Below are positions 33,224-50,966 of a DNA stretch of 64,000 bases, one piece after another. A program made the position numbers and the translations under genes. Location of the stretch: positions 310,001 through 374,000 of the forward strand of contig NZ_JOCA01000002.1 of NCBI RefSeq assembly GCF_000718785.1, given 5' to 3'. Under the pieces are notes generated by a model that did not search any database, was not told the origin of the DNA, and saw only the letters and a list, made by a program, of their open reading frames with translations. Each line of letters opens with the position of its first letter. The stretch's first letter is position 1. This DNA comes from Streptomyces sp. NRRL WC-3626 (GTDB lineage: Bacteria; Actinomycetota; Actinomycetes; Streptomycetales; Streptomycetaceae).

Positions 33224-33607
33224 CTACGACGCGGCCCGTAGCTCACGATCCTCAATGACGTTCTCGAACTCGTCGGCATCCTCGATCATCCCGTAGGTCT
33301 CCGGTGAGATCTCGTCCTCATCGCCGCCGAGCCGGCGGTTGAAGCTGCTCGACGCGGAGAACTTCAGCACCACGTAGTCGTCGACGTTGCTCTTGCCGAA
33401 GCGCACCTTGTGGCCCTTGTGGTCCTGTCGGTAGAAGCGGCCGAAGCTCGTGAGCACGACCGTCTCTCCGCAGCTGACTGCGCCCGTGAGTTCGCCGAGC
33501 AGCGACTCGTACACCTTGTTCACCACCCGGATCGGCAACCCACTGCGAGTCGCGACCCGAGAGATGAACTCGCGCTTACTGACACGCGGATTCGTCGTCG
33601 TCTCCAT
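33224..33607 (-). CDS. HU/IHF-family DNA-binding protein with an acidic tail
   Basis: 127 aa from the ATG at 33607 (GTG 33613 possible). The first 90 residues follow the HU fold: VSKREFISRVATRSGLPIRV, then VNKVYESLLGELTGAVSCGE, then VVLTSFGRFYRQDHKGHKVR, with GRF as in the family. The beta-arm tip and conserved Pro of classic HU are weak or absent. The last 35 residues are an acidic tail (DEDEISPETYGMIEDADEFE) not found in common HU proteins. It may bend DNA at the promoters or at the transfer origin. Own promoter with CGAGTCGA nearby. Confidence 0.78.
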   Translation of the reverse strand: METTTNPRVSKREFISRVATRSGLPIRVVNKVYESLLGELTGAVSCGETVVLTSFGRFYRQDHKGHKVRFGKSNVDDYVVLKFSASSSFNRRLGGDEDEISPETYGMIEDADEFENVIEDRELRAAS

Positions 33608-33740: not shown

Positions 33741-34106
33741 CTAGAGCTCCAGATCCAGCTCGATCTCCTCCCGGTCGTCCTTGGGCTCGTAGTCGACCGA
33801 TTCGATGCTGTTCCGCGTGTTCGGATCGCGGCGCTGGTTCACGACCCTGTCGTGGGACTCCTCGAACCGCTGCTGCGCCGCTACGCGGTGGGCGGCATCG
33901 AGCTTTGCGCCGATGTTGCGCTCCCCGAACTCCATCATCGAGCCCAGCGCCGACTTTGTGCCCTGCTTGATCGCGTTGACGTTCGGCTTGTTCTGCGCCC
34001 GCTGCTGCTCCCATCGGCTCCGGTCCTCCGGCGTGACGTAGCCGAACATCCGCGCAAAACGTGAGCCGAACCTGACCTGCTGTCCCTCATTCTGTTCCTG
34101 GCTCAT
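33741..34106 (-). CDS. Hypothetical protein, 121 aa
   Basis: A hydrophilic, helical protein with many Gln, Arg and Glu (FGYVTPEDRSRWEQQRAQNK; ALGSMMEFGERNIGAKLDAA) and an acidic C-terminus (DDREEIELDLEL). It is the third gene of the apparent RNA polymerase operon, 41 bp after the 579-aa gene. Function unknown; it could be a small subunit or regulator of the polymerase. Confidence 0.65.
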   Translation of the reverse strand: MSQEQNEGQQVRFGSRFARMFGYVTPEDRSRWEQQRAQNKPNVNAIKQGTKSALGSMMEFGERNIGAKLDAAHRVAAQQRFEESHDRVVNQRRDPNTRNSIESVDYEPKDDREEIELDLEL

Positions 34107-34147: not shown

Positions 34148-35887
34148 TCAGGCGGGCTGGTAGTCCTCGGAATCGGCCTCAGCGTTCGGGCTCTCGTTCT
34201 GCGGGCCGGCCTCCTGCTCGGACGACGGACCCGTAGGGCGCGACCGCGGCTTGAGCCGCTGCTCCTCGAAGAAGGCACCCGGGTCGTCGACCGCCGTCTG
34301 CAGCGTCTGCTGCCAGTTCTCCCCGAGGCTCCGTTTCAGCTCGGCCTCAAGATCCGGGTACTTCTCGTTCACCGCCTCCATCGCGTCGACGTAAGCGTTG
34401 GAGTAGACCCGCTGCTGCTCCTCGGGCGGCAGGCCGTCGATGTCCATGCTCGCGATCATCACCTCGGACTGGTCCAGGCGGTGCTGGAGCGTGTCGGGCA
34501 GTCCGCTGGTGTCCAGGCCCTGCTTCTGTGCCGCGAAGCCGACCAGGTAGCCGAGCATGTTGCCCCCGTAGCCCTCTTGGTCGCTGCGGCCCAGCGCGTC
34601 GAGCAGCGAGGTCTTCATCGTCTCGGCGAGCTGGACCTGGTGGGCGTCCGCATCCATGGGCCGGCGCAGCGTGAACATCCCGTCCTCGGGCAGACGCTGA
34701 CCCAGCTGGTCGTCGAACTCCCCGCTCCAGACCGTGCGGACCCGGTCGGAGCCTGCGATCCGCTCCTCGTGCGCGGGAGCCTTGACGATCCGGCCGTGGG
34801 CCACGCCGTTGAACATCGTGCGCAGCTCGGGCTCGTACTCCATCCGCTCGCCGATGATCATTCGCGCGCGCTGGACGACCTCCTGGCGCTCCAGGCCGTC
34901 TTCGCGCATCTGCTCGTGCAGCCGCTTGCGCATCGCCCGGTAGCTGTCGCGGATCAGGCCGGCGTCCGCGCCCGGCTCACGCATCTTCCAGAAGGCGTTC
35001 TCCATGAGCGCGACCTCGGTCATGGCTGCCGAGTCCGGGGTGAACATCTCCCGGTGGCCGCGCTCACGGTGCTGCATGGCGTCGAAGCGCTGGCGCCACT
35101 TCTTCGTCAGGTGGTCACGCGGATCGGTGCTGCCGATGAGGCGCTCGCGCCGGGCGTCGCTCGGCACGTCCTTGAAGATCCTCTGCCGGTGCGCGATGCC
35201 GCTCTCGGCAGAGGCGATCATGCCGCGGGTCCTGGTGTCGATGCGTTCCTGGATCTTGTCCTTGAGGGGCTGAAGGTAGCTGTCCATCTCCTTCTTGAAG
35301 TCCGGGGCGAGCATCCGCATCGTCATCACCATGCCGACGGCCTGGATGATCGAGTTGGCATTCACTCCGCGCGAGAGCGGCTTGAGACACGACTGCATCA
35401 TCATCTGCATGTAGACGTGGTGCATGACGCCGAGCTCCTGCGTCCGTTCCTCGTCGTTGAAGCCGGGCACCAGCAGCTTCGAGTCACGCAGCGAGGCCAT
35501 GTACTTCTCGCCGGCCAGCCGCGTCTCCGCCCGAAGCTTGAGCATCTGCTCGCGCTGTTCCAGGCCCTCGGTCTCGTCCTCTGCCCGGTCGACGTCGATC
35601 CCGTGCACGCGCTCGCGGTCGGCCATCCGATCCTGTGTCTTCGCGCCGAAGAACCCGCGAGCGCGGTCCCGGAGCCACTCGCGCCAGGCGCGCGAACCGT
35701 CGGCGTCCTCCGGTCCGGGCTCGTCGATCACCTCGGCGTCGATCGGCTCGTTCGAGCGCGAGTCCCAGTAGGCGTATGCGCTGCTCTGCGGCTCGTCGGC
35801 CTGCTGCCGATCGTCGTCCACCGGAAGCTCCTTGGCCGCGCGCGGGCGGCCCGCAGGGCCCGTTCCCAGTTCCTTGTGCTGTGCCAT
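34148..35887 (-). CDS. Hypothetical protein, 579 aa, co-transcribed with the RNA polymerase
   Basis: The ATG at 35887 lies one base after the stop of the giant polymerase gene, so the two are almost certainly translated from one message. The protein is hydrophilic and mainly helical. It has acidic N- and C-terminal regions and a central part of about 400 residues (RDHLTKKWRQRFDAMQHRER; ALMENAFWKMREPGADAGLI; VQRARMIIGERMEYEPELRT). I recognise no sigma-factor, zinc or nuclease motif. By position it is the best candidate for an accessory or promoter-recognition subunit; that is inference. It could also be an unrelated structural protein of the transfer system. Confidence 0.7.
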   Translation of the reverse strand: MAQHKELGTGPAGRPRAAKELPVDDDRQQADEPQSSAYAYWDSRSNEPIDAEVIDEPGPEDADGSRAWREWLRDRARGFFGAKTQDRMADRERVHGIDVDRAEDETEGLEQREQMLKLRAETRLAGEKYMASLRDSKLLVPGFNDEERTQELGVMHHVYMQMMMQSCLKPLSRGVNANSIIQAVGMVMTMRMLAPDFKKEMDSYLQPLKDKIQERIDTRTRGMIASAESGIAHRQRIFKDVPSDARRERLIGSTDPRDHLTKKWRQRFDAMQHRERGHREMFTPDSAAMTEVALMENAFWKMREPGADAGLIRDSYRAMRKRLHEQMREDGLERQEVVQRARMIIGERMEYEPELRTMFNGVAHGRIVKAPAHEERIAGSDRVRTVWSGEFDDQLGQRLPEDGMFTLRRPMDADAHQVQLAETMKTSLLDALGRSDQEGYGGNMLGYLVGFAAQKQGLDTSGLPDTLQHRLDQSEVMIASMDIDGLPPEEQQRVYSNAYVDAMEAVNEKYPDLEAELKRSLGENWQQTLQTAVDDPGAFFEEQRLKPRSRPTGPSSEQEAGPQNESPNAEADSEDYQPA

Positions 35888-35888: not shown

Positions 35889-38800
35889 TCAGTAGCCCGC
35901 CCCGTAGTCGTCGTCGCCCTGCGGCTGATCGATCTCGATGCTCGGCGTGTAGACCGGGCGCGACGCGCCCACGCCCACGGCATGCGCAGAGCGGCGGTGC
36001 GAGCCGCGGGTGCGGGAGGCCCCCGCGTCCTGAGAGATCACGTCGCGCTTGACCGCCGAGTCATCGACGGCGATCGCAGCGCTGTCCAGGCCCTGCGCCT
36101 CGGCGGAGCTCAGCTGATCGAGCTGCCGGGACATCTCCGCCCGGGCCTTCCGGGTCCCCGAGGACGCGAACTGCTCGTTCTTCTCGCCGTCGTAGACGCT
36201 CTCGCGGTTCTTGGCCGCCTGCACGAGCGCCTCGAAGCCACCGCCGTAGGCCATCCGGTCCATGACGGTGCCCCGCAGCGACGGGTCCTCTTCGAGGTTG
36301 CGGATGAGCCCGGTTTTCGGGTCCTCCAGCGAACTGGCCACGCGGGCCACGTAGGCCGGGTTGACCGTGACGCCGAAGCCCTCCTTGGACTCGTAGAACT
36401 CGATGAACTTCTTCTCCCACTCCTCGGCCGTGGCCTGGACGGGCTCACCGTCGAGGAATGCCGTGCGCCACTGACCGGGGCCGACGTGTTCGATGCTGCG
36501 GCCCCTCCAGAGCTCGCGGCCGGGGCCCTGGAGCATCGCGTACTTGTGCCGGGCCTCGGCGGCGTCGTGCTTGGCCTGCAGGATCGACTGGGTCACCGGG
36601 TAGGTGACCTCCAGGACGGCCTTGAGGTCTTCGCCGCGCAGCGCGCGCACGGCGCGCTGGCTGAACGAGCCGCCCAGGCCGGTGCCGTGAGCCTTGATCG
36701 CCGTGGCGAACATCGAGGCTTCCTGGTCGGCCTGCGTGATGCCGGGCGTGCCCTGCGCATCGCCCAGGTTCCGGGCGTAGTCGGTGAGCTTCTTCTCGCT
36801 GCCCTTGGCACCGGTCTCGACGCAGACCTCGCGCACGCTCTGCAGGTGCGCCTCGCGGTCCGAGAACGTCAGTGCCGCGCCGAACTCGCCACGCTGCGCC
36901 TGGCGGTACAGCGCGCTCAGCTCCTCCGTCACGACCTGCTGGTCGAGCTTGATGTCCTCAGGCGACTCTGCGCCCGTGAGCGCTTGCAGCCGGAGCCGGT
37001 TCGCCTCGCTGCGCGAGCTCTCCAGCTCCTCAGCCAGAGCAGTGTCCTTGGAGAGCGCGACCTGGGTGTCCAGCGAGACCTGCATGGCCAGCGGGTGCGA
37101 GCCGTCGCCCTTGACCACGCCGGTGTCCAGCAGGTTGGCCGGCACCGAGAGCTTCGCCAGGGCTTCCCCCTTGGCGGCCTCGCTGTGCAGCTTCACCACG
37201 GCGACCGCGTCGCCGTCGAAGTCGCCGTCGAAGCAGGCGTCCATCACCGGGTTGATCGCGGCACCGGTGAGCCGGTCGTCGATCGCGACCCGCATGTAAC
37301 GCACGCCGGCGTCACGGAGCACCGGGTCACGCCACACCAGCGCGTGGTCACCCTCGGCCAGCCCCAGCTGCTCGGCCTTGACCGAGCTCAGCGCAACCTG
37401 GTCGACGTCCAGCCGCGGGTCCGCAGTCCACACCATCGTCGCCGAGTCGGTCAACCGCGAGGCCATCAGCCCGGTCTTGAAGATGTTGTTCTTGCCCGTG
37501 AGCACCCGGTTCTGCACGTCGGTCGTGATCGCCTCGAAGGCGCGCTGAGCGCGCGAGACCGACTCGCTCATGCCGCGGCGCACCTCGGAGCGCTTTTCCG
37601 CGGACAGACCCTGGCCGTCCAGCTGCTCGGTCATGTAGCGGTAGCGGCAGGCCTCGACGAAGACGTCCTGGTAGCTGCGGGTGTAGTCGTGCGTGACGGA
37701 GGACCCGTCCTCGAACTCCTGGCCACTGCGCAGATGTGAGGACATCACCGGCAGCTTCCACGAGCTCGCGCTCACCGTCTCGGTCTGCTCACCGGTCGGA
37801 TACGTGAGCGGGAACGGGATCTCCATGTCGCCGCCGCGGTCGCCGATGAGATTGCCGAAGGACTTGCGCATCGCCGTGGTGTTCAGTCCCGGGAGCTGGC
37901 CCTCCTTGCGCGGCTGAGTGCGCAGCAGCTCGGGCATCGGGATGAACCGGCGCTCGGGGCGCTCGTCGATGCCCTCGGCCTGGCCGACCACCCGCAGTGT
38001 GCCGTCAGCCTCCATGTCCATGCCGGTCACCAGCAGGTACTCGCGCAGGTTCGACTCGGCCCCGCTGTTGTGGCCGTAGAACTCGCCCATGATCGCCGGG
38101 CAGTCCTGAGACTGCAGCGCCCAGGCCAGCTGCGAGGAGGCTTTGCGGCCCTTGCCAGCACGCACCTGCTCGTCGTCGTAGATCTTTGTCTTCTCGTCGA
38201 CGGCCATGTGGGTGACCACGAAGCGCATCTCGCCCAGGGCACTCGGCCGCAGTTCTCCGTTGGGGGAGCGCAGGTCGGAGACGTTTCCGCTCATCAGCTC
38301 GCGCGCCGAGCCCGCGTTGCGCCGGGAGATCAGGCTGAACGGGCTCATCACTACGTCCAGGCCCGGGTTGGCCCGGAACCAGTTGACCTCTTCGACGACA
38401 TCCTGCTCCTGCGCGTCCTGCAGCGGCATGTCCCGGTCGACGATCAGCGAGATCACGCCCTTGTTGCCGTGCAGATCCGAGATCTTGTCGCCCACGACGA
38501 GATCGCGCTCCTGGCCGCCGGCGCCGCGGATGCGGTGGCGCTCGGCGAACTCCTTCGACACCACGATCGGGTCATCAGCCGTCCAGCCGCCGAAGGTCAT
38601 CAGCGCCGTCTTCGCCGGCGCGGTGACCTCAGAAGACTGCATGATCGTCGAGGCCGTCATCTGCTGGCGGTCGAACGGGTCGTACCGCAGCGTCTCGAGC
38701 TCGGGGAGAGCCATGAGCGGCGCACGCTGTCCGGCCACGCTCTCGTCGCCCGGCACGATCTGGCCGTCGGCGTCGACCTGGGCCTGAGTGGTCAGGTACC

Positions 38801-41435
38801 GCACGATGCCCTGGTTGGTCGCGCCTCCGGTCATCACCGGGTCGAAGTAGCCGCTGGGCGCAGCGACGTTGTTCCGGTCCTTGCCGGTGAGTACCGTCAT
38901 GTTCCGCCCGCCGGTGAGCCGCCAGGCGTCGAAGCGGTTGTCGTCAGCCGGGTCAGTTTGGTCGCGCTGGGCCCGGTACTCGGCGTAGATCGTCGAGCCG
39001 GCCTTGATTTCGTTGGAGTAGCGCACACGGCGCGCCTCGGTCTGCAGGATCGCGGCCGTCCACTCGTCCAGGTGCTCCTTGATCTCGCCGGTGGACTCGT
39101 CGAGCTGGTACGTGGTGGCGCGCTCGATGAAGTCGATCGGGTGCTTCGTGCCGTACAGCTGCGAGTAGACCGCGTTGAGCGAGGAGGGCTCGCCGGTCTC
39201 GCTGCGCCCGGCGATGAGGTCGCCGGCGATCTGGTACTGGATGCGCTCGTGCATGAGCTGCTCGTAGCCGCGCAGGCGCGTGCGTTCCTCGACCGAGGTC
39301 GGAGCCTCGCCCGGAGTCTGGGCCGTGATCGTGGCCTCGTAGCCCGGCACGACCAGGGCGTTATCCCCGCTGGCGAAGGCGGTGGTGATCTCGCCGTACT
39401 CGCCGACATCGAAGACCTGGCCGATCTCACCCGAGATCGGAGTCCCCTTGCCGTCACGGCGCTGCTTCTCGCCGCTCCAGCGGATGACGCCCTGCTCGTC
39501 GACCAGGATCTCGGAGACCGTCGCCGCGTTGCGCTCGATGCTCTCGCGCACGGTGGCCCCGATGCGCCGCATGAATGCAGATTCGTGATCGGCGATCGGC
39601 ACGGAGCGCTCGGCGTCGAAACGGACGAGCCGGTCCTTGAACCGGGTCGTCTGGAAGGTCGAGCCCATCATCTCGTCGGGGGAGATTCCGCAACGACGAA
39701 GCGCCGAGGCGAGGTTGTCGAGGTTCGACCACTGCCCGGTGGGGCTGGTCATGTACCGCGCCACCCGGTCCGGGTTGAAGCGCTGGTCGACCCACTCGCC
39801 GTCGACGTCGTGGGGCTCCGCCTCCCAGGTCCCGATGAGTTCGAAGGGGACGTCCTCGGCGTGCTGCCGGACCTTCTCGACGGCGGTGCCGCCGTAGACG
39901 AGGTTGCCCATCTCGGGCACCTCCTCGGCCTGCAACTCGCCGATCTCCTCCAGCCTTTCCTGGTACATCTCTTCGGTCGCCCCCGGGCGCAGCAGATCGC
40001 TGTGCGCGCCGGTGAGGACGTCCCAGTAGGAGCGCTGGATCGCAGCGACCTCAGAGTCAGCCGAGTACTCCGGCGGCTCGATCGCATCCAGCTGTCCGCC
40101 GGTTCGCTCCAGCTCGGCCTCAGCACGAGCGATCAGGTCTTCGACGCCAAGAGCTGCCTGCAGGTTCTGCCGCGCGCTCTCGACGGCGGCCTTCGCGTAG
40201 GCCTCAGCGGGCTGGGCGTCGATGAAGAAGGTCGGCAGGGAGCGGTTCTTCGCGTCTCGGCGCAGCATCACCTTCGACCCGGGCCGGGGACCGGACTCGC
40301 CCGGGGCCACATAGTTGCCGACCACGAACATCGACTCCCGGTCGACGTGGTAGCTGTCGGGCACATCCACCAGCGTGCGGCCACGGCCGCGCTCCTGGTG
40401 CGTCGTGCCCATCTCGCCGGCGGCGTGCCCCGGAAGATCCGTGCGCTCGATGCGGTGGCCCTGGGCGAAGCGCAGCAGCTGAACGGCTTCCGTCGGCGAG
40501 GGGGAGTAGACCGCCATGCCGCCGGGGACCCGGTAGTTCGTCGAGTAGCGCAGCACGGTGCCGTTGTCGTAAATCCGGGCTCCGGCGTACTCCTCCTGGC
40601 GCGTGTCGGTGAGGCGGATCTCCATGCCGGTCTGGGCGATCTTCGCCTTGATCTGACCGGGCTCGCGGTCGCGCATCACCTCGTAGGACACGCCCTGGGC
40701 CTTCAGCTCTTCGAGCAGTGCTGCCGAGCGTGCCACGGCGCGCCGGGACATGAAGCGGTTGCGGTCGACACGGTTCGTCTGGGGATCTCGGCCGCCGTCG
40801 ATGACCCACTCGCGGACCTGGTCGTACTCCTGCTGGCTCATCTTGTCCATCAGCGCGGTGAGCCCAGCGGCGTCATCGTTCGTCATCGCTCGGCCGGCCT
40901 CGAAAGGTTTGCCCTCGTCGTCGATGCGCCAGAGCACCATGTTCCCGCGACGGGGATCGGCTAGGGTCTTCACCTCGCCGCCGGCCACGCGTGCGATCGT
41001 CTCGTCCGGCAGGTACACAAGCGCAGTCCCGGCGCGCTTCACGGTCGCGCGTTCGGACCAGTCGGGGTCGTAGGGGCTGATCGGCAGCCGGGCCGACTTC
41101 GGGTCGGCCTGGGCACCGACGCCGGTGGCACGGATGAACTCCCGCTGCGACTGCTGGTAGCTCTCGTTCTGCGGGGAATGGTCACCGAACTGCGGCTCGT
41201 AGTCAGACACCTTCTCCGCGAATGCCTGGTCGATGGCGGTGAGGCAGTCCGTGACGCCCAGCCGCGGGTCGGCCAGCGCGGTGCCCCGCTGTCCGAGGAT
41301 CTCGTCGACCCGGGCGCGGATCGCCTTGGCCTGGGAGATCGGGATGACCTGTCCGGTCTGATCCCGGGCCTGCTCGACTGCCTTGTAGTAGACGTACTCA
41401 TAGAAGTACCTGCGCAGTCCGTGTGCCTTCTTCAT
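35889..41435 (-). CDS. Giant single-chain two-barrel RNA polymerase (beta and beta' fused)
   Basis: 1,848 aa from the ATG at 41435. Signatures of both large RNA polymerase subunits appear once and in the cellular order. Beta-like: MTFGGWTADDPIVVSKEFAE (from residue 946; cellular form is MPW-GYN-EDAI-LSE), GDKISDLHGNKGVIS (from 982; cellular GDKMAGRHGNKGVIS), DMP, and DVVMSPFSLISRRNAG (from 1027; cellular DIVLNPLGVPSRMNIGQ). Beta'-like: WRDPVLRDAGVRYMRVAI, then NPVMDACFDGDFDGDAVAVV, with DFDGD at 1405-1409 (cellular NADFDGDQMAVH, the three catalytic Asp that bind Mg). A later segment (GLGGSFSQRAVRALRGEDLK) may be the bridge or trigger region. It should polymerise RNA on a DNA template. The first 900 residues are not recognised. 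Single-chain forms are known in yeast killer plasmids and in phages; on a Streptomyces conjugative element it is striking. Its own promoter lies at 41483-41504. Confidence 0.88.
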   Translation of the reverse strand: MKKAHGLRRYFYEYVYYKAVEQARDQTGQVIPISQAKAIRARVDEILGQRGTALADPRLGVTDCLTAIDQAFAEKVSDYEPQFGDHSPQNESYQQSQREFIRATGVGAQADPKSARLPISPYDPDWSERATVKRAGTALVYLPDETIARVAGGEVKTLADPRRGNMVLWRIDDEGKPFEAGRAMTNDDAAGLTALMDKMSQQEYDQVREWVIDGGRDPQTNRVDRNRFMSRRAVARSAALLEELKAQGVSYEVMRDREPGQIKAKIAQTGMEIRLTDTRQEEYAGARIYDNGTVLRYSTNYRVPGGMAVYSPSPTEAVQLLRFAQGHRIERTDLPGHAAGEMGTTHQERGRGRTLVDVPDSYHVDRESMFVVGNYVAPGESGPRPGSKVMLRRDAKNRSLPTFFIDAQPAEAYAKAAVESARQNLQAALGVEDLIARAEAELERTGGQLDAIEPPEYSADSEVAAIQRSYWDVLTGAHSDLLRPGATEEMYQERLEEIGELQAEEVPEMGNLVYGGTAVEKVRQHAEDVPFELIGTWEAEPHDVDGEWVDQRFNPDRVARYMTSPTGQWSNLDNLASALRRCGISPDEMMGSTFQTTRFKDRLVRFDAERSVPIADHESAFMRRIGATVRESIERNAATVSEILVDEQGVIRWSGEKQRRDGKGTPISGEIGQVFDVGEYGEITTAFASGDNALVVPGYEATITAQTPGEAPTSVEERTRLRGYEQLMHERIQYQIAGDLIAGRSETGEPSSLNAVYSQLYGTKHPIDFIERATTYQLDESTGEIKEHLDEWTAAILQTEARRVRYSNEIKAGSTIYAEYRAQRDQTDPADDNRFDAWRLTGGRNMTVLTGKDRNNVAAPSGYFDPVMTGGATNQGIVRYLTTQAQVDADGQIVPGDESVAGQRAPLMALPELETLRYDPFDRQQMTASTIMQSSEVTAPAKTALMTFGGWTADDPIVVSKEFAERHRIRGAGGQERDLVVGDKISDLHGNKGVISLIVDRDMPLQDAQEQDVVEEVNWFRANPGLDVVMSPFSLISRRNAGSARELMSGNVSDLRSPNGELRPSALGEMRFVVTHMAVDEKTKIYDDEQVRAGKGRKASSQLAWALQSQDCPAIMGEFYGHNSGAESNLREYLLVTGMDMEADGTLRVVGQAEGIDERPERRFIPMPELLRTQPRKEGQLPGLNTTAMRKSFGNLIGDRGGDMEIPFPLTYPTGEQTETVSASSWKLPVMSSHLRSGQEFEDGSSVTHDYTRSYQDVFVEACRYRYMTEQLDGQGLSAEKRSEVRRGMSESVSRAQRAFEAITTDVQNRVLTGKNNIFKTGLMASRLTDSATMVWTADPRLDVDQVALSSVKAEQLGLAEGDHALVWRDPVLRDAGVRYMRVAIDDRLTGAAINPVMDACFDGDFDGDAVAVVKLHSEAAKGEALAKLSVPANLLDTGVVKGDGSHPLAMQVSLDTQVALSKDTALAEELESSRSEANRLRLQALTGAESPEDIKLDQQVVTEELSALYRQAQRGEFGAALTFSDREAHLQSVREVCVETGAKGSEKKLTDYARNLGDAQGTPGITQADQEASMFATAIKAHGTGLGGSFSQRAVRALRGEDLKAVLEVTYPVTQSILQAKHDAAEARHKYAMLQGPGRELWRGRSIEHVGPGQWRTAFLDGEPVQATAEEWEKKFIEFYESKEGFGVTVNPAYVARVASSLEDPKTGLIRNLEEDPSLRGTVMDRMAYGGGFEALVQAAKNRESVYDGEKNEQFASSGTRKARAEMSRQLDQLSSAEAQGLDSAAIAVDDSAVKRDVISQDAGASRTRGSHRRSAHAVGVGASRPVYTPSIEIDQPQGDDDYGAGY

Positions 41436-41482
41436 AGTCAATCAGCCTCTGTGGACGCTCGGGGTTACATAAGCATGTATAG

Positions 41483-41504
41483 AGCCTACTCTGCCTATCG
41501 AAAG
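41483..41504 (-). promoter_or_regulatory. Promoter of the RNA polymerase operon
   Basis: On the minus strand CTTTCGATAG (41495-41504) is followed 13 bases after its TCGA by TAGGCT (41483-41488), about 50 bp from the ATG, in an AT-rich patch. Confidence 0.5.
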
Positions 41505-41526
41505 GAAGTGAGGGGTCATCCAGAAA

Positions 41527-41578
41527 GGCCAGTGCCGAGGCAGTCTCCCTTAGTCGAGAGACGACCTCGGCACTGGCC
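41527..41578 (-). terminator. Terminator downstream of the coupling-protein gene
   Basis: A 14-bp perfect repeat (41527-41540 and 41565-41578) with inner partial pairing, between the coupling-protein stop and the next promoter. Confidence 0.8.
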
Positions 41579-41611
41579 GTGATCCTTGGCTGGCCCCCAA
41601 GTGGCCGTCGG

Positions 41612-44600
41612 CTACTTCGAGTTCATCTCGATGGCCATGGCCCGGTCGAACCGGCCGTCGGCCAGTACCTCCCAGCTCGGCAGCGAGGCCAGGTACTGGT
41701 AGAAGGCCGAGTGCACCTTCACCGTCGCCAGGGACTTCAGGTCCTCCTCGGTGACGTCCCCCTCCGCGAACACCCGCGAGTCCTCGTTGTTCACATGGCC
41801 GTTGATCCGGCGGGCCGCATGGGCGTACGCGTCCGAGCGGATCTGGCTGATGTACGTCTGAGACCCGTCGGCGCTGCGCAGCTCGCCGTCGCCGCCGACC
41901 GAGAAGTGCTCGCGATCCTGTTCCAACTCGGTCTGCGCCGACTTGTAGGCCTCACCGATCTCGATGTCCAGGCTCTTGACCTTCGCCGAGCCGTCGGGGT
42001 TGACCAGCATCTCCTTGCTGATCGTCCCCTCGGCGTAGAGCAGACGCTGCCGCTCGGCGCTGACCGCCTGACTCTCGGCGACCGCAACCCCGACCTCGAC
42101 GTTCTCGATGAACTGGTCCTCGTCGAACATGCTCATCCCCTCGTACGCGTCGGGGTCGACGACCACCGGAGCGTTGGGGTCCTGGCCCTCGTCGACCGTG
42201 GTCATCGTCGTGATGACCTCCATGACCTCGTCGGCGTAGACATCGGGATCCAGGCGCTCGATGTCGACCTCCTGGTAGCTGTAGATCTCCTTGTACTGCG
42301 CCTTCGCGTCTGCGGCCTTGACTGCCTGCCGCATGCGCTTCTCCAGCATCTTCACGAAGTCCGGCTGGTTCATTCGCACGTCGAAGTCCATGGCACTGGA
42401 CAGCGTCGGGATCGTCTGCAGCGAGTACGTGTGCCCCGGGTGCTTGATCGTGTTGCCCAGCAGCCGGAACGACATCGGCAGGATCGTCTGGTTGCGGTTC
42501 CAGATCGGCGCGTCGCCGGCCCGGAAGACGATCGAGTTGCGCGGCGAGAGGAATGCCATGTCGTTGTAGCTGATCAGCGGCTCTTCCTTGGTGTTCATCG
42601 TGTAGGAGACCCGGCCCTCGGTCTTGCCGCCGATGACCTTGTCGAGATCCTGGCTGATCTGCTTGCTGTCACGGTACGACCGGTGCGTCTTGCCGCTCAT
42701 CTTCTCCAGCGTCTCGATCATCGAATCGTCCGTGGACTTCAAGAAGACGATGTTCGAGGTGTTGCCCTGTACGATCTTGTCGACGCTCTCGCCGTAGACG
42801 TCGCGCAGCTGCTGCAGGGTCTGCAGGATGAGCGTGAACTGCTGCTCCTGGCCCAGGCCGATGGAGAGCATCGTCTCGAAGCCGTCGATGCCTTTGCCCT
42901 CGGACTGCAGGTTGCCGAGCTCGTCGAGCATGAACCGCGTGCGGTAGAGCGGCTTCTGGTTCGACTTCGTCATGTACGCCTGGTCGGCGCTCACGTCGAA
43001 CAGCTGCTTGACCAGGATCAGGATCAGCTTCGCGTACTTCATCAGGTGGGGTGGAGTCACCAGGAACAGCGCCTTGGGGGACTCCGAGTAGCGCGACAGC
43101 GTCTGCGTGATCGCCCGTGCCTGGTACGAGACCTTCTCCGGGTTGCCGACGCCGGAGAAGTCGAGTCGCGTGTCCGGGTAGAGCGTGTCCCCGGGCTGGA
43201 AGGACAGGATCTTCCCGTCCCGGGTGCCGCCCTCACGCACCGGCTTCAGCTCACGCATCACGCCGTTCTTCACGATCTTATTGCCCGTCACCGGCTCGAC
43301 CACGTAGTGCCGGCCGTTGAGCGAGACCTGGTAGTTCTTCGTGAAGCTGAAGTAGAAGGTGCGCACCAGCATCTTTGTCTGCGGATTGACCAGCTCCAGC
43401 TTGAGCCAGGCCTCGTCGTCAGGGAACTTGCCCTTGAAGTTGTACCGGGCCCAACCCTCGCGGCCGACGATCTCCTCGTGCTCGAAGTCCTCACCCAGGT
43501 GCTCGGTGAACATCGGGTCCGCGTAGGCCGACCACACGGCTTGCTGACCGACGAGGTGGTCGCGCTTGACGTAGTTCGGCGCGAAGCGCACGCCGAGGCG
43601 ACGCGGGAAGCTCAGGCCGGCCAGGTCGGTGTTCTGCGAGGGCTTGCCCGAGGTCAGCGTCGAGATCGTGGGGTCGGTGAAGAACGACATGGCGGTGATC
43701 GCGATTCCGTACACCGAGGCCAGCATCTTCTCCGCCCCGGCCATCGAGCGCAGCGCGTTGTGGGCGTTGCCCACCAGCGTGCGCATGTTGTTGCGGGGCA
43801 GCTCCTCGCTCGCGTTGAAGTACAGGCTGAGCATGTCCTGATCGGCCTTGCCCTCCCACATGAAGGCCTGGGCCGCAGCCTTCTCCTGCTCCTCGGCCAG
43901 GGCGTCCTCGTTGTTCTCGAACTCGCCGGCCTTGACCCGCTTCTCCAGCTCGGCCTCAGGGTTCTTGATCTTCTTCGAGCTCATCTGCACGAAGAGCTGG
44001 TAGCAGTTGTAGAGCGTGGCCTTGCCCCAGAGGTCATCGAGCTTCTGCTCCAGCAGCGCCGGGTCCATATTCAGCACGGCTGCGGCGCTGCGCAGCTCCC
44101 GCTCCTCCTCCAGATAGAAGTCGATGAGTCCGTAGGCCGCGCGCTTGAAGGCGTTGTTGGCGGCGTTGGGCCAGACCGGGTCCTCGCCGCCGTCGAGCGG
44201 AAAGAAGATCCCGGCGATGTTCTCCACGTACAGCGCGCACTTGGTGAAGTTGCCCTCACGCGCCGCGTCGGCCGCCAGTCCCAGGGGGTTGTAGATGTCG
44301 GTCTTCATGGAGTTGATCAGGTTGAACTGCACCGGCTCGAACCCGCGTGTGACCAGGGGCACGTAGTTCTTCACCAACAACTCGCCCTTGGGGTCGTTGA
44401 TGACCATGTTCGAGGGCTTCTTCTCCCGCGACCACATGTCGATGATCGGCTCGATGTACGTCTGGCCCTTACCGGCTCGGGTGATGGCCAGCACCATGGT
44501 GTTCACCGGCGCGGTATCGACCACGTACGCCCCGGCCGGGCGCTGGACCTCGTACGCCGGGAACTCCCAGTCCTTCTTGATCAGGTCAGCGACGGTCTTG

Positions 44601-45658
44601 TACGTGTCCGATCCGAAGCCGAGCTTGTCCCGGTTCTTGCCGTCAGGGTTGTACGGGATCCGTGCCGTGTCGTACTTCTGCCGCAGCGTCTTGTCATCGG
44701 GGAGCCCGGATGCCTCGAACAGCTCGTCGCCGAAGTCTTCGTCGATGATCGGCAGGGTCTGCGTCAGCGGATCGCCCTCGTCGTCGTCCATGACCTCGCC
44801 AGCGTAGTAGACGAGGTTCCCCTCCTCATCGATGACGTCGTTCTTGGCGCGCTGGGCGACCTCGACGGTGCCCAGGCCCTTCTTCTTGAGCATCATGTGG
44901 CTGAGCATCGAGCTGACCTGCACGCTTGAGTGAGCACCGGCGTCGGGGAACCAGTCGTAGTTTTGCTGGATCTCTTCCGGCAGGGAGATGTGCTGGTCGT
45001 TCTGGTACTGGTTGATGTCGCTCGTGGTGTTCATCAGGTTCGCCGCGGCGACCTTCCGCGAGAACCACGTACCGATGATGAGGGCGACCATCAGACCCGA
45101 GCCGAGCGTGATGAAGAGCTTGAACCCCGAGACGTCGGCCAGCTGCTCGCCGACCGTCGTCTCGCTCTTCTTGGGCTCAGCCGGCTTCTCGGCGCTGGGC
45201 TTGCCGTCCTTCGCCGCGGTGTACCAGCTGGGGACCGGAACAGCCTCAGCGCTGTGGTAGCACTTCGCCTTCACGTCCGGGTTGCCGTCCTTGGCCAGGG
45301 GCCGGTAGCACTTCACGACCGAGCCGCCCGCACCCGTCGTGGTGTCCTGGACGTAGTACACGCTCGGCTTGCCGGTGCCGTTGCCGGGCACGCCCGAACC
45401 CACGGACGCGCCCACCGAGAGCACCGCCGTGGCGATGAGGGAGTAGAAGACCCAGGCGACGATCGTCACCAGCACGCCGGTAATCACCGCGACGACGATG
45501 CCCGGTCTGGTCGACCTCAGAGTCAGGAACGTGCTGCGGTCCAGCTGCTGGTTGTCGTGGACGTCTCGGTTCGTCAGCGTCTCGCCGGGCGTCCGCGCCG
45601 AGATCTTGTCCCAGCTGCTCGCCTTCGGCCGTGTTGCCTTCCGCCTGTTCGTGGCCAT
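41612..45658 (-). CDS. Type IV coupling protein (VirD4/TraG family), very large
   Basis: 1,348 aa, about twice the usual coupling protein. The N-terminal part has two membrane helices (about 52-82, GIVVAVITGVLVTIVAWVF; about 175-200, FITLGSGLMVALIIGTWFS) separated by an extracellular loop of about 90 residues. The motor domain has a P-loop MVLAITRAGKGQTY (GKG at 396-398) followed by PSNMVINDPKGELL, the VirD4/TraG signature. Walker B is FMLDELGNL (from about 910), then LSIGLGQEQQFTLILQTLQQ and GNTSNIVFLKSTDD. It would bring the relaxase-DNA complex to the secretion channel. The last 300 residues are acidic and unrecognised. A terminator follows. Confidence 0.92.
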   Translation of the reverse strand: MATNRRKATRPKASSWDKISARTPGETLTNRDVHDNQQLDRSTFLTLRSTRPGIVVAVITGVLVTIVAWVFYSLIATAVLSVGASVGSGVPGNGTGKPSVYYVQDTTTGAGGSVVKCYRPLAKDGNPDVKAKCYHSAEAVPVPSWYTAAKDGKPSAEKPAEPKKSETTVGEQLADVSGFKLFITLGSGLMVALIIGTWFSRKVAAANLMNTTSDINQYQNDQHISLPEEIQQNYDWFPDAGAHSSVQVSSMLSHMMLKKKGLGTVEVAQRAKNDVIDEEGNLVYYAGEVMDDDEGDPLTQTLPIIDEDFGDELFEASGLPDDKTLRQKYDTARIPYNPDGKNRDKLGFGSDTYKTVADLIKKDWEFPAYEVQRPAGAYVVDTAPVNTMVLAITRAGKGQTYIEPIIDMWSREKKPSNMVINDPKGELLVKNYVPLVTRGFEPVQFNLINSMKTDIYNPLGLAADAAREGNFTKCALYVENIAGIFFPLDGGEDPVWPNAANNAFKRAAYGLIDFYLEEERELRSAAAVLNMDPALLEQKLDDLWGKATLYNCYQLFVQMSSKKIKNPEAELEKRVKAGEFENNEDALAEEQEKAAAQAFMWEGKADQDMLSLYFNASEELPRNNMRTLVGNAHNALRSMAGAEKMLASVYGIAITAMSFFTDPTISTLTSGKPSQNTDLAGLSFPRRLGVRFAPNYVKRDHLVGQQAVWSAYADPMFTEHLGEDFEHEEIVGREGWARYNFKGKFPDDEAWLKLELVNPQTKMLVRTFYFSFTKNYQVSLNGRHYVVEPVTGNKIVKNGVMRELKPVREGGTRDGKILSFQPGDTLYPDTRLDFSGVGNPEKVSYQARAITQTLSRYSESPKALFLVTPPHLMKYAKLILILVKQLFDVSADQAYMTKSNQKPLYRTRFMLDELGNLQSEGKGIDGFETMLSIGLGQEQQFTLILQTLQQLRDVYGESVDKIVQGNTSNIVFLKSTDDSMIETLEKMSGKTHRSYRDSKQISQDLDKVIGGKTEGRVSYTMNTKEEPLISYNDMAFLSPRNSIVFRAGDAPIWNRNQTILPMSFRLLGNTIKHPGHTYSLQTIPTLSSAMDFDVRMNQPDFVKMLEKRMRQAVKAADAKAQYKEIYSYQEVDIERLDPDVYADEVMEVITTMTTVDEGQDPNAPVVVDPDAYEGMSMFDEDQFIENVEVGVAVAESQAVSAERQRLLYAEGTISKEMLVNPDGSAKVKSLDIEIGEAYKSAQTELEQDREHFSVGGDGELRSADGSQTYISQIRSDAYAHAARRINGHVNNEDSRVFAEGDVTEEDLKSLATVKVHSAFYQYLASLPSWEVLADGRFDRAMAIEMNSK

Positions 45659-45793: not shown

Positions 45794-47860
45794 TCAACGG
45801 GTCAAGACCACCCCGACGATGAAGCCGGCCGCGCCCATCAGGAGCGAGAGCGTGACGATCATGACGACGAGGATCTTGTTCGAGCGGCTTTGCATCTCGG
45901 AGGCCCGCGCCAGCTCGTTGGCGTAGGACTCCTTGTCGGCCTGCATCTCCGCCAGGCGCACCTCATACCGCCTGGCCACTGAATCCTCGACCGTCGACAG
46001 CTGCTGGAGCAGGTCGGTGACCCGTGCCACCTGGGAGTTGGTCTTCTCCTTCTCCAGGTCGAGGTTGTGCTGCCACTCGGCGTCCCGAGCCGTCATCTGC
46101 GTGATGGCGTCCTTGCGGTTGCGTTCGAGCTCGTCCTCCATCCGGCGGATCCGGTCGGCGTGCTCAGAGCGCACCGACTCCAGGAGGTCCTGCTGCTCCC
46201 GGCGCAGGGCGCCGATCTCGTCCGTGGTCCGCAGGTGCTCGGCCAGCGCCTCGGACTGGGCGATGTCGGCCTTGCGGTTGTCGTCGACGATCCGCTGGAT
46301 CTCGGACTTCCACTGGTTCAGGCGCTCTTCCTCGGCCGCCAGGTATTTTGACTGCTGCTCGGCCAGCACCTCGAAGATCCGCGTCTGCCCGGTCTGCATC
46401 TTCAGCGTCGCGTCCGAACGCCGGACGCGCAGGATCTCCTGCTGGTTGTGCGCGTGGGTGTCCTCGATGTCCCGCTCGATCCCGGCGATGGAGTCGGTCT
46501 GCTCGCGCTCCATCTTCGAGCGGTTGCGCTCCTTGTACTGCAGTTCCGCCGAGAGCGCCGCCTGCTGGGCCACCTTGGAGGCCTGAGACTCGTAGTCCTT
46601 GGCGATCTCCGCCCGGCGGGCCCGGATCTTCTCATCCTTCTCCGTCTGCCGCTGCTGGTGCTCGGCCTCGGCGGCGTCCTTGAGCAGCTTGTACCGGGAG
46701 CCCGCGCGGTCGGTGGCCACATCGCGGATGACCTGCTCGGTGTGCGCCGACATGAGGTTGACGTAGAGCGCACGCAGCTCATCCTCATGCGCGGAACGGA
46801 GCTGCATCAGGTCTGCGTTGGCCTGCCGGTTGAGCTGGGCGACCTGGTCCCCGAGCCACTCCGTCGCGCCCTCGGGCACAGCGATCTGCACGACCGGCGC
46901 GCCGATGGCGAAGGTTGCGTTGAACTCATCGAGCCGGACGTCCAGGTCCAGCTCCTCGGAGAGGAACCGACGGGCGATGACGTCGCGCACCTGGGCCTGA
47001 TCGGCCAGCAGCACAGTGTCGCCGGCCTCCTGGTAGTCGCCCTCGACGCCGTAGCCGGCGTCGGTCTCGTCGAAACCCTCGTAGCCGGCCACCTCGTCGC
47101 CGTCGTAGTCCGGCTCCGACTCGACCGGGACGGCGCCCGCGTCGTCGATACCTGCGGCGTCCTCGCCGAGCATGGATGCGTCCGCCCCTTCATCCGCGTC
47201 GACGACGTCGCTGAAGAGCGGCTCGTCGTCCAGGCCCTCGGCAGCCCCCTCGTCACCGGGGATTCCGTCGAAGATCGCATCCCCCTCGTCCTCCCCGAGG
47301 ACCGCGGGGGCAGTGGCTCCAGCTTCGGCGACCAGGCCGCTGTGCTCCTCCCATGCCTTCTTGCCCACGGCTTCTTCGAGGCTCGTGGTACCTGCAGCGA
47401 CAAAGCGTGCCTGCGCGAAGGTCGCATCGTTCACGAGATCGACGAGCAGATCGCCGCTGGGCTTCTGCCACACGACGGCCCAGGCGTAGGTGGCACCGGT
47501 GAGCAGCGAGTACTCCTCCATCCGCGCGAGAGTCTCGTCGGTGGGGATGATGCCGAAGACCTCCTCTTCGAGCATCTCCGCCGTGGCCACCGTGCGGATC
47601 TGGTCGGAGCTGATGAGCTCGATGATCGAGCCCTTCGCCTCGTCCCGGCCGTGCCGCTTGCTCAAGCCACCGATCGAGTCGGCTGCGAGCACGAGCATCA
47701 CCCAGGCCGTACCGCTGGGAAAGACGAACTGCGTGTTCGACCGCAGCAGCTCTACCGCCGCCGGGATTGCCGTTTCTCTCACCACGGAGGCCAGAAGCTC
47801 GTCGGGCTTCTTCTTCCGCTCCTTCCTGCGGCTTCCCGTTGCCGTACCCAGAATGCCCAT
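45794..47860 (-). CDS. Tail-anchored coiled-coil protein, 688 aa
   Basis: A basic N-terminal 20 residues, a globular domain (about 20-170; VFPSGTAWVMLVLAADSIGG), an acidic low-complexity linker (about 190-275), a second small domain (about 285-340) and a long coiled coil (about 350-640; KDAAEAEHQQRQTEKDEKIR; EELERNRKD-type heptads). It ends in one membrane helix (NKILVVMIVTLSLLMGAAGF). This shape places a rod in the cytoplasm attached to the membrane at its C-terminus. It might position DNA or the coupling protein encoded next to it. Not recognised as a family. Confidence 0.72.
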   Translation of the reverse strand: MGILGTATGSRRKERKKKPDELLASVVRETAIPAAVELLRSNTQFVFPSGTAWVMLVLAADSIGGLSKRHGRDEAKGSIIELISSDQIRTVATAEMLEEEVFGIIPTDETLARMEEYSLLTGATYAWAVVWQKPSGDLLVDLVNDATFAQARFVAAGTTSLEEAVGKKAWEEHSGLVAEAGATAPAVLGEDEGDAIFDGIPGDEGAAEGLDDEPLFSDVVDADEGADASMLGEDAAGIDDAGAVPVESEPDYDGDEVAGYEGFDETDAGYGVEGDYQEAGDTVLLADQAQVRDVIARRFLSEELDLDVRLDEFNATFAIGAPVVQIAVPEGATEWLGDQVAQLNRQANADLMQLRSAHEDELRALYVNLMSAHTEQVIRDVATDRAGSRYKLLKDAAEAEHQQRQTEKDEKIRARRAEIAKDYESQASKVAQQAALSAELQYKERNRSKMEREQTDSIAGIERDIEDTHAHNQQEILRVRRSDATLKMQTGQTRIFEVLAEQQSKYLAAEEERLNQWKSEIQRIVDDNRKADIAQSEALAEHLRTTDEIGALRREQQDLLESVRSEHADRIRRMEDELERNRKDAITQMTARDAEWQHNLDLEKEKTNSQVARVTDLLQQLSTVEDSVARRYEVRLAEMQADKESYANELARASEMQSRSNKILVVMIVTLSLLMGAAGFIVGVVLTR

Positions 47861-48003: not shown

Positions 48004-50913
48004 TCATCGCACCGCGCTGACCTCGACGTAGGCGTCGGAACTCAGCAGGTTCTTGTCGTCGCTGACCAGGTCGCCGACGACGTCGATGCGGATACGCCGT
48101 TCCGAGGGGTGCTCGTTGAGGAAGGTCGCCACCGCGGTGGTGACCTCGTCGGTCAGCTTCGCCACAGCCGCACGCGCACCGCCGGCATCAGAGGCGGTAT
48201 CGCCCTTGTCCTCGATGAGGTACTGCAGGACCCTCGCATCGACGTCGATGCGCACGTTGTGCTTGACGAACACCTCCTGCACCATCTGGCGCAGCTTCTT
48301 CCGCACGATCTTTTGCTGCGTCAGCAGCGACAGCGGCTGGAAAGGCACGATCGCGTCGATACGACCCAGCAGCTCGGGCGGAAATCGGTTGTCGCCCGTC
48401 GTCGAGGAGATCGAGCGGCGGATGAGCTTCTCGTACTCCAGCAGCTGCTTGCCCGACCCGGTGTCGTCCGCCGCGTACTGCGCGATGTCCTTGTAGATCT
48501 CCGAGCCGGCGTTCGTCGTCAGCACGATGTAGGTGTTGAGGAAGCTCACCTCGCGGTTGTTGGCGTCGTTGAGCCGGCCGTCGTCGAGCACCTGCAGCAG
48601 CACGCGTGTCACCATCGCCGAGGCCTTCTCGACCTCGTCGAAAAGCAGCACAGCGTGGGAGAGGGCCCACACGCGCTTGGTGAGCTCAGAACGGAACGCC
48701 GCGAACGACGAGTCCTCGGCGTACTCCGTCATGTCGAACCGGATCAGGTGCCGCTGGTCGTCACCGAACAGCAGTCGTGCCAGCTGCTTCGTGAGCTCCG
48801 TGTTGTGCGTGACCACGAACTGACCAGCCTGGTAGAGGTGCTCCTCGTCGTTGACGTAGATGCACGACGAGCTCTGCTGCTCCGGCAGCTTCTCGATCGA
48901 CGCGATGCCGACCATGTCGAACTTCTTCACGCGCTTACGACCCGAGGTCTCGATGGCCGCGCGCCGTGCGATCTCCTGCTTGCGGGGGAGGGAGAAGAAC
49001 CCGGCCTTATCCTCGTTGCCGACCTTCACGTGCACGCCGTACTCGACCAGTTCGCGCCCGTCCTCCTTCGTGCGTGTCCACGATTTGATCGTGTTCGAGA
49101 CGCCGAGCGAGAACAGCACCTCCCTAAGGTCCTCCGTGAGCCCCTTGGAGAACGTCGAGTACGAGACGTTGAAGCGGTCGTTCGAGGCACCGATCGATCC
49201 GTCGGTGTCGAAAAGGCCCCGCACCAGCGCCCACCGCTGCTGTACCGATCCGTGTTTGTACCTCTCCGGGATACGGCGCTCCGCCGAGCGCGCACCGATC
49301 AGATCGGGAACCGAGGCAAGCACGTCCTTCGTCTGGTACAGCGAATCGCGGCGGTCCTCCACCGGGCCAACACCGACAGGGAAAACCCAGCTGTAGTTGC
49401 GTCCGTACGACTTCGGTGCCGACCCCAGCCATTCGCCCACCATCCACACGGTGTGGTCGGCGTCGTCCCCGTCAGACGAGAGCGTCAGCTGCCTCTCAGT
49501 GAGGCACCCGTTACCGATGAGGACGCCCAAGACGTACGGGTCGACGTCGAAGTCCTGCTCCGGCCAGTGCACCGGTCCGTTCGCCGGGATGAAGAACTTC
49601 AGATCTTCCCGAGAGTCGCCGGGGTAGGTCCGCACGACGCCACGCTCGACCATTTCCTGCGTGCTCAGGACCATCGGCGCGACGTCCTTGCCCGCATGCT
49701 TCTTCGACCGCTGCTTGGCTGTGTAGACCGTCCACAAGTGCGGTCCTCCAACGTCGAGAGTCCGGCCGTCCCAGAGCGTGACCCGGTAGACGTCCTGCAT
49801 GCCCTGCGGGAAGTGTCCGAGCACCTCGACCGGGTGACCTTGGCGACCGAACACTCTGTCGCCCGGGACCAGGTCGCCGTGCAGCTTCCAGGTGGTCTCG
49901 CCGTCGCTCGAGTAGACAGGAACCTGCGTCGAGTCGACGCAGAATTTCCCCGTTCCCGTCGATCCCGTGAACAGCAGGCTCGCCATCGGCTTCCCCTTGT
50001 CGTTGAGGTCCGCCACCGACAACTGCAGACGACGCGCCACCGCGCCGGTCGCCCAGTCCTGGCTGAACACCTTGGCGTCCAGCTGCTTCTTGATCTTCGC
50101 GCCGTCGACCCGGAATGCGACGTTCACGTTCAGGGACTCCATGAGCACGTCCGAGAGCAGGTCCCGATCCATCGGTCGGTGCGTCAGGCGATGCCAGCCG
50201 ACCATGGAGTCGAGCACGAGGATCGACTTGCGCGGCTGGGCGCTGGCCGGCATGTAGCGCTGGGTGTACTCGTAGATCTGCTGGAAGACGTGGTCGTCGT
50301 AGAACTCGTCGGCCACCCCGTACCGTTCGGCCATGCCCTGCAGGATCTTGATGGTCGTCGCCTGGTCCGGCGGGTTGAGGTTGATGCGCTGCAGGCGCTC
50401 GACGAGCGGCTGGTTCGGCGAGATGTGCTTGTGGAACTCCTCGTAGGTCGTCGCCGCGATGATCCTGATGCCTCGGGTTCCCGAAGCCGCGAGGACCGGC
50501 TTGATGGCCTCGACAGCGGCGTCGGAGAGCTGGATGATCTGGTGGAACTCGTCGATGAAGAGCACCACTTCGTGCTTCTCGTCCTTGACGAAGTCCTCGG
50601 CCTCGTCGAAGAAACCCTTGAGCTTCGAGGCCATGTTCTCGGCGTTGCCCGCCTCGGAGATCATGCGCGCCGGGTCCACCTCCAGGTAGAGGCGGCCCGG
50701 ATCCACGAGCATCGTGGCCTGGACCAATGCGGTCTTTCCCGTTCCGGCCTCGGCCAGTAGAAGCGCATTGCACAGCTCAGGGCGGCTCATCGAGGCCAGC
50801 AGCTGCATCGTCTCGTGCTCACGGCCGACGATGTCGCGCTCGGCCTTCTTCAGTGGCTCCGAGAGCTTGGACAGGAGTGGGTAGCGCTCGTTGAGCTGTG
50901 CCTCGTGGAACAT
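48004..50913 (-). CDS. Clp-type double AAA+ ATPase interrupted by an intein
   Basis: 969 aa precursor from the ATG at 50913; about 588 aa after splicing. First AAA module: Walker A AEAGTGKT (54-61), Walker B VVLFIDEFHQ (116-125), then IIAATTYEEFHKHISPNQPL as in ClpA/B. Second module: TGSTGTGK (316-323), intein, then TELTKQLARLLFGDDQRHL, Walker B VLLFDEVEKA and a Clp-type C-terminal domain (RFPPELLGRIDAIVPF). Removal of the intein rebuilds a GTGKT P-loop. A related uninterrupted gene is at 8729. It probably unfolds or assembles a component of the transfer system. The frame also extends upstream to 51072, across a terminator, so the start at 50913 is preferred. Confidence 0.9.
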   Translation of the reverse strand: MFHEAQLNERYPLLSKLSEPLKKAERDIVGREHETMQLLASMSRPELCNALLLAEAGTGKTALVQATMLVDPGRLYLEVDPARMISEAGNAENMASKLKGFFDEAEDFVKDEKHEVVLFIDEFHQIIQLSDAAVEAIKPVLAASGTRGIRIIAATTYEEFHKHISPNQPLVERLQRINLNPPDQATTIKILQGMAERYGVADEFYDDHVFQQIYEYTQRYMPASAQPRKSILVLDSMVGWHRLTHRPMDRDLLSDVLMESLNVNVAFRVDGAKIKKQLDAKVFSQDWATGAVARRLQLSVADLNDKGKPMASLLFTGSTGTGKFCVDSTQVPVYSSDGETTWKLHGDLVPGDRVFGRQGHPVEVLGHFPQGMQDVYRVTLWDGRTLDVGGPHLWTVYTAKQRSKKHAGKDVAPMVLSTQEMVERGVVRTYPGDSREDLKFFIPANGPVHWPEQDFDVDPYVLGVLIGNGCLTERQLTLSSDGDDADHTVWMVGEWLGSAPKSYGRNYSWVFPVGVGPVEDRRDSLYQTKDVLASVPDLIGARSAERRIPERYKHGSVQQRWALVRGLFDTDGSIGASNDRFNVSYSTFSKGLTEDLREVLFSLGVSNTIKSWTRTKEDGRELVEYGVHVKVGNEDKAGFFSLPRKQEIARRAAIETSGRKRVKKFDMVGIASIEKLPEQQSSSCIYVNDEEHLYQAGQFVVTHNTELTKQLARLLFGDDQRHLIRFDMTEYAEDSSFAAFRSELTKRVWALSHAVLLFDEVEKASAMVTRVLLQVLDDGRLNDANNREVSFLNTYIVLTTNAGSEIYKDIAQYAADDTGSGKQLLEYEKLIRRSISSTTGDNRFPPELLGRIDAIVPFQPLSLLTQQKIVRKKLRQMVQEVFVKHNVRIDVDARVLQYLIEDKGDTASDAGGARAAVAKLTDEVTTAVATFLNEHPSERRIRIDVVGDLVSDDKNLLSSDAYVEVSAVR
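48802..49944 (-). other. Intein with LAGLIDADG endonuclease, apparent class 3
   Basis: 381 residues inserted between the Lys and Thr of a P-loop (GTGK/TELTK). It begins FCVDSTQVPVYSSDG and ends VVTHN before +1 Thr. If residue 1 were the Cys, the ligated P-loop would carry an extra Phe; with Phe as residue 1 the motif is restored. The three marks of class 3 inteins are visible: Trp in block B (GGPHLW), Cys in block F (SSCIYV) and Thr in block G (VVTHN). Two LAGLIDADG-like motifs, YVLGVLIGNG and LVRGLFDTDG, indicate a homing endonuclease, possibly still active. Confidence 0.85.
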
Positions 50914-50966
50914 GCCGCGCAAGACCTCTCGACTGGACTGAAGATTTAACTGGAAAATCAGTCGAA

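Follow-up and report, generated by a model that had tools for sequence, protein, structure and literature searches.

A putative single-chain, two-barrel RNA polymerase linked to the coupling protein of Gram-positive conjugative elements

The window, the 64,000 nucleotide stretch of Streptomyces sp. NRRL WC-3626 DNA analyzed here, contains a series of minus-strand genes that encode, in order, a lysozyme, several small proteins, MobL, a 182 residue protein, an AAA ATPase, a 688 residue protein, TraG, an RNA polymerase (RNAP), a 579 residue protein, a 121 residue protein, and HU. The phage-tail-type lysozyme (60527–62716; PF18013, E 3.7e-37) is a likely cell-wall hydrolase of the transfer apparatus. 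The MobL relaxase (53104–55347; PF18555, E 3.7e-114) and a 1,348 residue TraG/VirD4-type coupling protein (41612–45658; PF02534, PF12696) lie in one locus and on one strand, the combination that marks a MobL-type conjugative element, and the conjugative setting originally proposed for this DNA agrees with this gene content. Between them lie a double AAA (Clp/Cdc48-like) ATPase (48004–50913) identified by Pfam, in which a LAGLIDADG stretch is likely an intein by comparison with a plasmid copy, and the 688 residue protein (45794–47860), which is kept in related elements, has no Pfam match, and appears by eye to be helical with a C-terminal membrane segment. The plasmid copy of the ATPase, from Streptomyces NBC_01454 (L008, 9129–13424), carries an extra ~460 residue insert in its first AAA domain. 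The 182 residue protein and ATPase genes are separated by ~1.4 kb in the window versus ~190 bases in NBC_01454, which suggests an insertion at 50914–52372.

The TraG and RNAP genes are separated by a gap (41436–41611) with a hairpin followed by a T-run (41527–41578, identified by eye) and, ahead of the RNAP start codon, an AT-rich stretch resembling a promoter. Immediately after the RNAP gene comes the 579 residue protein (34148–35887), which has no assigned function or Pfam match and whose homologues adjoin RNAP in related loci; the 121 residue protein (33741–34106), which ends in IELDLEL, and an HU-like DNA-binding protein (33224–33598; PF00216, E 7.6e-8) follow. No VirB4-type Pfam match was found among the selected window frames scanned, and an Rfam scan of positions 30000–64000 returned no match. 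The Lactococcus plasmids discussed below encode a CpaF/VirB11-type ATPase (PF00437; L164, 38145–39878, and L007, 40227–41873), and UvrD-like helicases are present in the window (12508–15354, plus strand) and in a related locus (L043, 19842–22547).

The RNAP gene (35889–41435, minus strand) begins with an ATG at 41435 and ends with a stop codon at 35889, with 1,848 codons uninterrupted between them. The original prediction had described an intact frame of this length and given no strand; the frame is borne out, as are its beta signatures followed by beta' signatures (all five quoted strings are found in the frame) and the intact catalytic aspartates, in DFDGD at residues 1405–1409 (37209–37223). 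The protein was said to be about 600 residues shorter than beta plus beta', and it is 628 residues shorter than the RpoB and RpoC frames of its own genome combined (1171 + 1305). It is the sole match to itself in that genome (contig 2, 345892–351435). The frame is not a product of chance, since relatives are found by the hundreds (708 proteins at E<=1e-3 among 7,991 candidates scored, 120 of them listed) and dN/dS is 0.20–0.29 against four relatives. One related locus, in Streptomyces sp. SM1 (L036), has a best-segment identity of 100%.

Profile and structural comparisons, both of which had been proposed as checks, relate the protein to both large subunits of cellular RNAP. Pfam identifies Rpb2 domain 6 (PF00562) at residues 975–1055 with E 2.5e-8 and, slightly below the cut-off, Rpb1 domain 2 (PF00623) with E 2.2e-4. 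Alignment with hhalign to the subunits of the same genome yields E 5.8e-13 for RpoC and E 2.7e-7 for RpoB, and searching the PDB with the family profile retrieves beta'/Rpb1 chains of cellular enzymes (best E 8.6e-20). Predicted models match RNAP structures at the level of overall fold, and the polymerase core of phage AR9 is among the matches. In a viral structure library, the top matches are mostly RNAP subunits and unnamed proteins, with the 'minor tail protein' of a phage ranked seventh.

Three regions can be delineated from these comparisons. First, residues 1–618 (39582–41435) form an N-terminal extension with no significant structural match: Foldseek returned no match at E<=1e-3, and the matched rows (VIA) begin at residues 614–619. 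The model of residues 1–900 has a pLDDT of 87.7; residues 1–618 were assessed as part of this longer model, and that they are missing from the fold lists does not establish a novel fold. The original prediction of an unrecognized N-terminal part thus stands, although its size is ~618 rather than 900 residues, since residues 619–900 resemble the beta protrusion. Second, residues 619 to ~1111 (38103–39581) constitute a beta-like half with protrusion/fork and the first double-psi barrel, in which lobe and flap are shortened or absent; in the hhalign alignment, the flap, RpoB residues 739–870, is reduced to ~10 residues. This half contains the GDKxSDxHGNKGVIS motif (residues 982–996; 38448–38492), of which D983, K984, G990 and K992 are invariant in a 30-sequence alignment. 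Third, residues 1144–1759 (36159–38006) constitute a beta'-like half with a clamp-helix hairpin and the second barrel. Here a bridge-helix-like motif (TGAKGS; residues 1534–1558, 36762–36836), weak alone, aligns with SGARGN of RpoC, and a trigger-helix-like motif (TQxxLQxKHD; residues 1611–1625, 36561–36605) aligns by eye with GTQLTMRTFH of RpoC. The last 45 residues are modeled with pLDDT <50, and this disordered tail closes with an acidic/hydrophobic end motif (35892–35921). Bacillaceae and Lachnospiraceae members (L044, L046, L055, L057) carry a long insert of unassigned fold at the flap position, where actinobacterial members have ~10 residues.

The catalytic motifs are conserved across the family. 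DxDGD is present in 264/264 members, DK..GNK in 262/264, and QxxLxxKH in 248/264, each pattern being sought anywhere in the sequence and not by alignment position; these counts use members P0001 and P0003–P0265 and leave out 31 rows (P0266–P0296), most of which are RNAP proteins of a different, multi-domain type. The window protein resembles cellular RNAP (RpoB/RpoC; Rpb2/Rpb1) in the order of its two double-psi-barrel halves and in having DxDGD, GDK..HGNKG, the clamp hairpin and the bridge and trigger motifs. It differs in being one chain of 1,848 residues, in its missing flap and apparently missing lobe, in its unmatched 618 residue N-terminal part, and in being carried by conjugative elements alongside the host's own enzyme. 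A beta-type barrel motif with two lysines and a beta'-type barrel with DxDGD are both present, as in two-barrel (msRNAP-type) enzymes, whereas two features of the cellular core, separate beta and beta' chains and a flap for sigma region 4, are absent. Yeast virus-like elements and jumbo phages, which are cytoplasmic or viral elements, also own two-barrel RNAPs; these consist of more than one chain and are not known to be linked to a coupling protein. The SPbeta phage enzyme YonO, named in the original prediction, offers a partial parallel in that it too is a single-chain enzyme with the Asp triad on a mobile element (PMC5467207, as excerpted). No sequence relation between the two is detectable (hhalign probability <1% with a single YonO sequence), and YonO is 839 residues as annotated and phage-borne rather than conjugative. 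Moreover, the excerpted text of Forrest et al. 2017 (PMC5467207) reports YonO to be without trigger-loop homology, while the present family keeps bridge-helix and trigger-helix motifs and can be aligned with cellular subunits. Judged from sequence and predicted models, the product of the window gene is very probably a single-chain RNAP, related to the cellular core enzyme and part of a conserved conjugation module. The features first proposed, a beta/beta' fusion in cellular order with its catalytic residues kept and in a conjugation-type locus, are supported.

The family has no model of its own in Pfam, NCBIfam or PHROGs, where only partial RNAP matches are found; those in NCBIfam lie far under the model cut-offs, and those in PHROGs are weak. 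Most listed relatives are annotated 'hypothetical protein', although UniRef calls some of them 'DNA-directed RNA polymerase' and NCBI calls one 'RNA polymerase Rpb2'; thus, the resemblance has previously been noticed by annotation pipelines. Homologues were collected from 51 genome loci, two of them weak (L058, L061), in Streptomyces, Arthrobacter, Kribbella, Nocardiopsis, Actinomadura, Paenibacillus, Shouchella, Virgibacillus, Evansella, Lachnospiraceae and others, as well as one Muribaculaceae metagenome-assembled genome in which misbinning is possible. Among 72,556 plasmid records, the RNAP is present on 13 plasmids of Streptomyces, Rhodococcus, Gordonia, Staphylococcus and Lactococcus; one of this group, CP016746, is presumably pMPJM1. 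A single-protein search identifies the gene in 4/199 Streptomyces genomes, the window's own included, and 2/51 genomes of an Arthrobacter-containing family are clear carriers, both already known, with a third match (E 9.5e-4) likely to be RpoB. The family profile reaches E<=1e-3 in 391/398 Bacillota genomes, where the listed matches, except that of G213, score ~70–79 bits and are ones we take to be RpoC; because the profile picks up cellular RpoC nearly everywhere, only G213, the centre genome, stood out. A phage origin was considered and rejected: 4/50,697 phage records match, all weakly, and only two (L062, L063) of the 39 loci returned from IMG/VR match over >1,000 residues.

Four observations tie the RNAP to a particular type of transfer system. 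First, the gene immediately upstream of the RNAP gene is TraG-like in 40/51 loci, with a median gap of 167 nt. Many of these 40 loci are close relatives, and Bacillaceae, Lachnospiraceae and Oscillospiraceae are included; the pairing spans two phyla, Actinomycetota and Bacillota. Among the 11 loci without a recognized upstream TraG, three start within 150 nt of a contig edge, and another (L058) has a diverging coupling-protein gene. Second, the window TraG matches 834 of the 72,556 plasmid records at E<=1e-4, and the top 12, at 322–2472 bits, are every one an RNAP record; a stricter limit gave the same 12. The other TraG records fall well below these in score, with 33 listed at 123–149 bits and the remaining 789 ranking lower. 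Thus, 12/12 plasmids of the window-TraG clade carry the RNAP versus 0/822 plasmids with a looser TraG homologue (Fisher 4.6e-27, for records that are not independent). Third, RNAP and TraG distances are correlated across 23 elements (r = 0.815, a value reached by 0/5000 Mantel permutations) and across 15 divergent elements (r 0.715). Fourth, a MobL gene is present in 25/30 RNAP-bearing genomes searched, 24 of them over the cut-off, a count of presence in the genome with position checked in part. The arrangement is not invariant: in Lactococcus, the RNAP lies ~32 kb from TraG, and a search of all 90,767 bases of the thirteenth RNAP plasmid, pJM4A, gave no match to TraG. Given the linkage, plasmid co-occurrence, distance correlation and MobL presence, the RNAP behaves as a fixed part of one TraG/MobL transfer module. 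In three loci (L047 and L048, Bacillaceae; L062, viral collection), the TraG gene is interrupted by large inserts that contain reading frames and may be group II introns.

The association with the coupling protein points to a role in transfer or establishment. The mechanism that we favor is that the RNAP is an active, sigma-independent enzyme owned by the element that acts in recipient-side establishment, either delivered or made first on entry, and that transcribes or primes the incoming strand; taken as a whole, this statement is plausible, with somewhat less than an even chance of being correct. The single-chain RNAP, whose activity is predicted, would make RNA on DNA. In cellular RNAPs, the flap anchors sigma region 4; its absence here argues against host-like sigma-dependent initiation, and start sites would instead be found by the RNAP's own N-terminal part or by a partner. 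The TraG machine would deliver the RNAP along with the relaxase-DNA, or the RNAP would be made first upon entry, and it would then transcribe or prime the incoming strand in the recipient, so that the host enzyme would no longer be needed. Precedents exist for making RNA on plasmid DNA that has just entered a cell, as described in excerpts of PMC8406263: proteins including the SogL primase pass through the conjugation systems of the F and ColIb plasmids, and host RNAP starts on entering single-stranded DNA of F at Frpo. These systems differ from the one proposed here in that SogL (IncI) is a primase and Frpo uses the host polymerase. Several points weigh against a recipient-side role. The linkage to TraG would also fit a job in the donor, and the distant Lactococcus RNAP and the pJM4A RNAP lack the close association with TraG seen elsewhere.

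For delivery in particular, the RNAP C-terminus is the candidate signal. Sequence information in the RNAP ends concentrates in the last seven residues (85 clusters). A matrix built from these ends, scored leave-one-out with 434 phage-contig frames as controls, places 36% of the 85 clusters above the control 95th percentile. The same threshold is exceeded by the ends of 5/10 MobL proteins (some partial), 10/12 of the 121 residue frames (close relatives), and 5/31 of the 579 residue frames, by 9% of 300 other same-strand frames and 4% of 334 opposite-strand frames, and by 1/54 TraG, 0/46 AAA and 0/15 HU ends, these counts being derived from printed fractions. In two plasmids, the ends are alike: ..KDIELEL in MobL (identified by Pfam) and ..GFELEM in the RNAP of SAP020A, and ..KDIELDI in the gene at the MobL position (a putative relaxase) and ..KDVEMEMS in the RNAP of pHD75-1. 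Most actinobacterial MobL ends examined have no RNAP-type end motif, nor does a relaxase-like frame in Lactococcus. A C-terminal tag common to the RNAP, MobL and their neighbors is thus only partly borne out, since most MobL ends do not fit. Several unnamed proteins downstream of the RNAP end in a near-identical acidic tail of the DGPE/DL type and are among the top matrix scorers (L046, 14791–15537; L047, 13970–14809; L048, 14007–14867; L063, 14712–15716; L062, 16870–18081); they are candidate co-cargo. The specific proposal is that one class of Gram-positive conjugation systems ships its own RNAP to the recipient via the coupling protein, with recognition of a C-terminal tag, and that this RNAP transcribes or primes the entering strand ahead of the host enzyme and independently of it; this is tentative and less likely than not. 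The motif is weak and absent from most actinobacterial MobL ends examined, and an enzyme of 1,848 residues would have to unfold for export.

The same linkage to transfer genes would be expected of a dedicated polymerase on the donor side that transcribes the element's transfer (or cargo) genes from promoters of its own, in the style of phage late polymerases, much as YonO specifically transcribes its own phage according to the excerpted PMC5467207. We consider this reading unlikely, if still a serious competitor. Several separate upstream gaps are present in the tra regions of the window and of Gordonia and Rhodococcus plasmids, and the sequence TATCGAA, picked from a k-mer scan, is common to intergenic gaps: 4/4 of its occurrences in 34 kb (window positions 30000–64000) are intergenic, each before a transfer-region gene. 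Judging from its placement, it may serve as an operator for the transfer genes. A common promoter, however, was not established. The repeat TATCGAATG was rejected, as its seven matches at one mismatch are no rarer than in shuffles (4.3 expected) and are not significant; only its exact core, TATCGAA, is confined to gaps. A reading of the upstream regions as promoters of host type is feasible, but a test of conserved -10 boxes did not discriminate: although TA...T is conserved in 5/10 tra regions and is joint first among eight all-AT patterns, 7/64 comparable patterns are better conserved and 13 equal it, and such boxes were discarded as evidence against the original suggestion that the RNAP transcribes the whole transfer system. 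That suggestion itself is not supported by these results.

A role as primer maker is less probable again. Here, short RNAs would mainly prime the complementary strand of transferred or replicating DNA in place of a plasmid primase, consistent with the lack of a Pfam primase among the selected window frames scanned and with a DNA topoisomerase gene that follows the RNAP, with one or two genes between, in all three staphylococcal plasmids read (L006, L162, L163); a processive enzyme, however, would have more use for trigger-helix and clamp-hairpin motifs than a primer maker. That the protein is a decayed or repurposed polymerase now acting as a structural component of the relaxosome or coupling complex might account for its divergent sequence, its large extension and its physical neighbor TraG, but is very improbable in the face of the nearly universal DxDGD and DK..GNK motifs and of purifying selection.

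We know of no conjugation system with its own multisubunit-type RNAP as a constant part. A literature search, from which most subscription papers fell outside, found no study of such an RNAP in a conjugation region and none on the transfer of the staphylococcal, lactococcal or actinobacterial plasmids that bear this family. The RNAP is a natural single-chain enzyme that can be aligned with cellular RNAP but is devoid of the flap and probably no longer sigma-dependent, and it may serve as a test bed for the minimal needs of a two-barrel polymerase. Its delivery, if true, would be the conjugative counterpart of virion-packaged phage polymerases such as the N4/crAss-type virion RNAPs. More broadly, an RNAP acting on the recipient side would change the view of how gene expression starts right after DNA entry in Gram-positive recipients.
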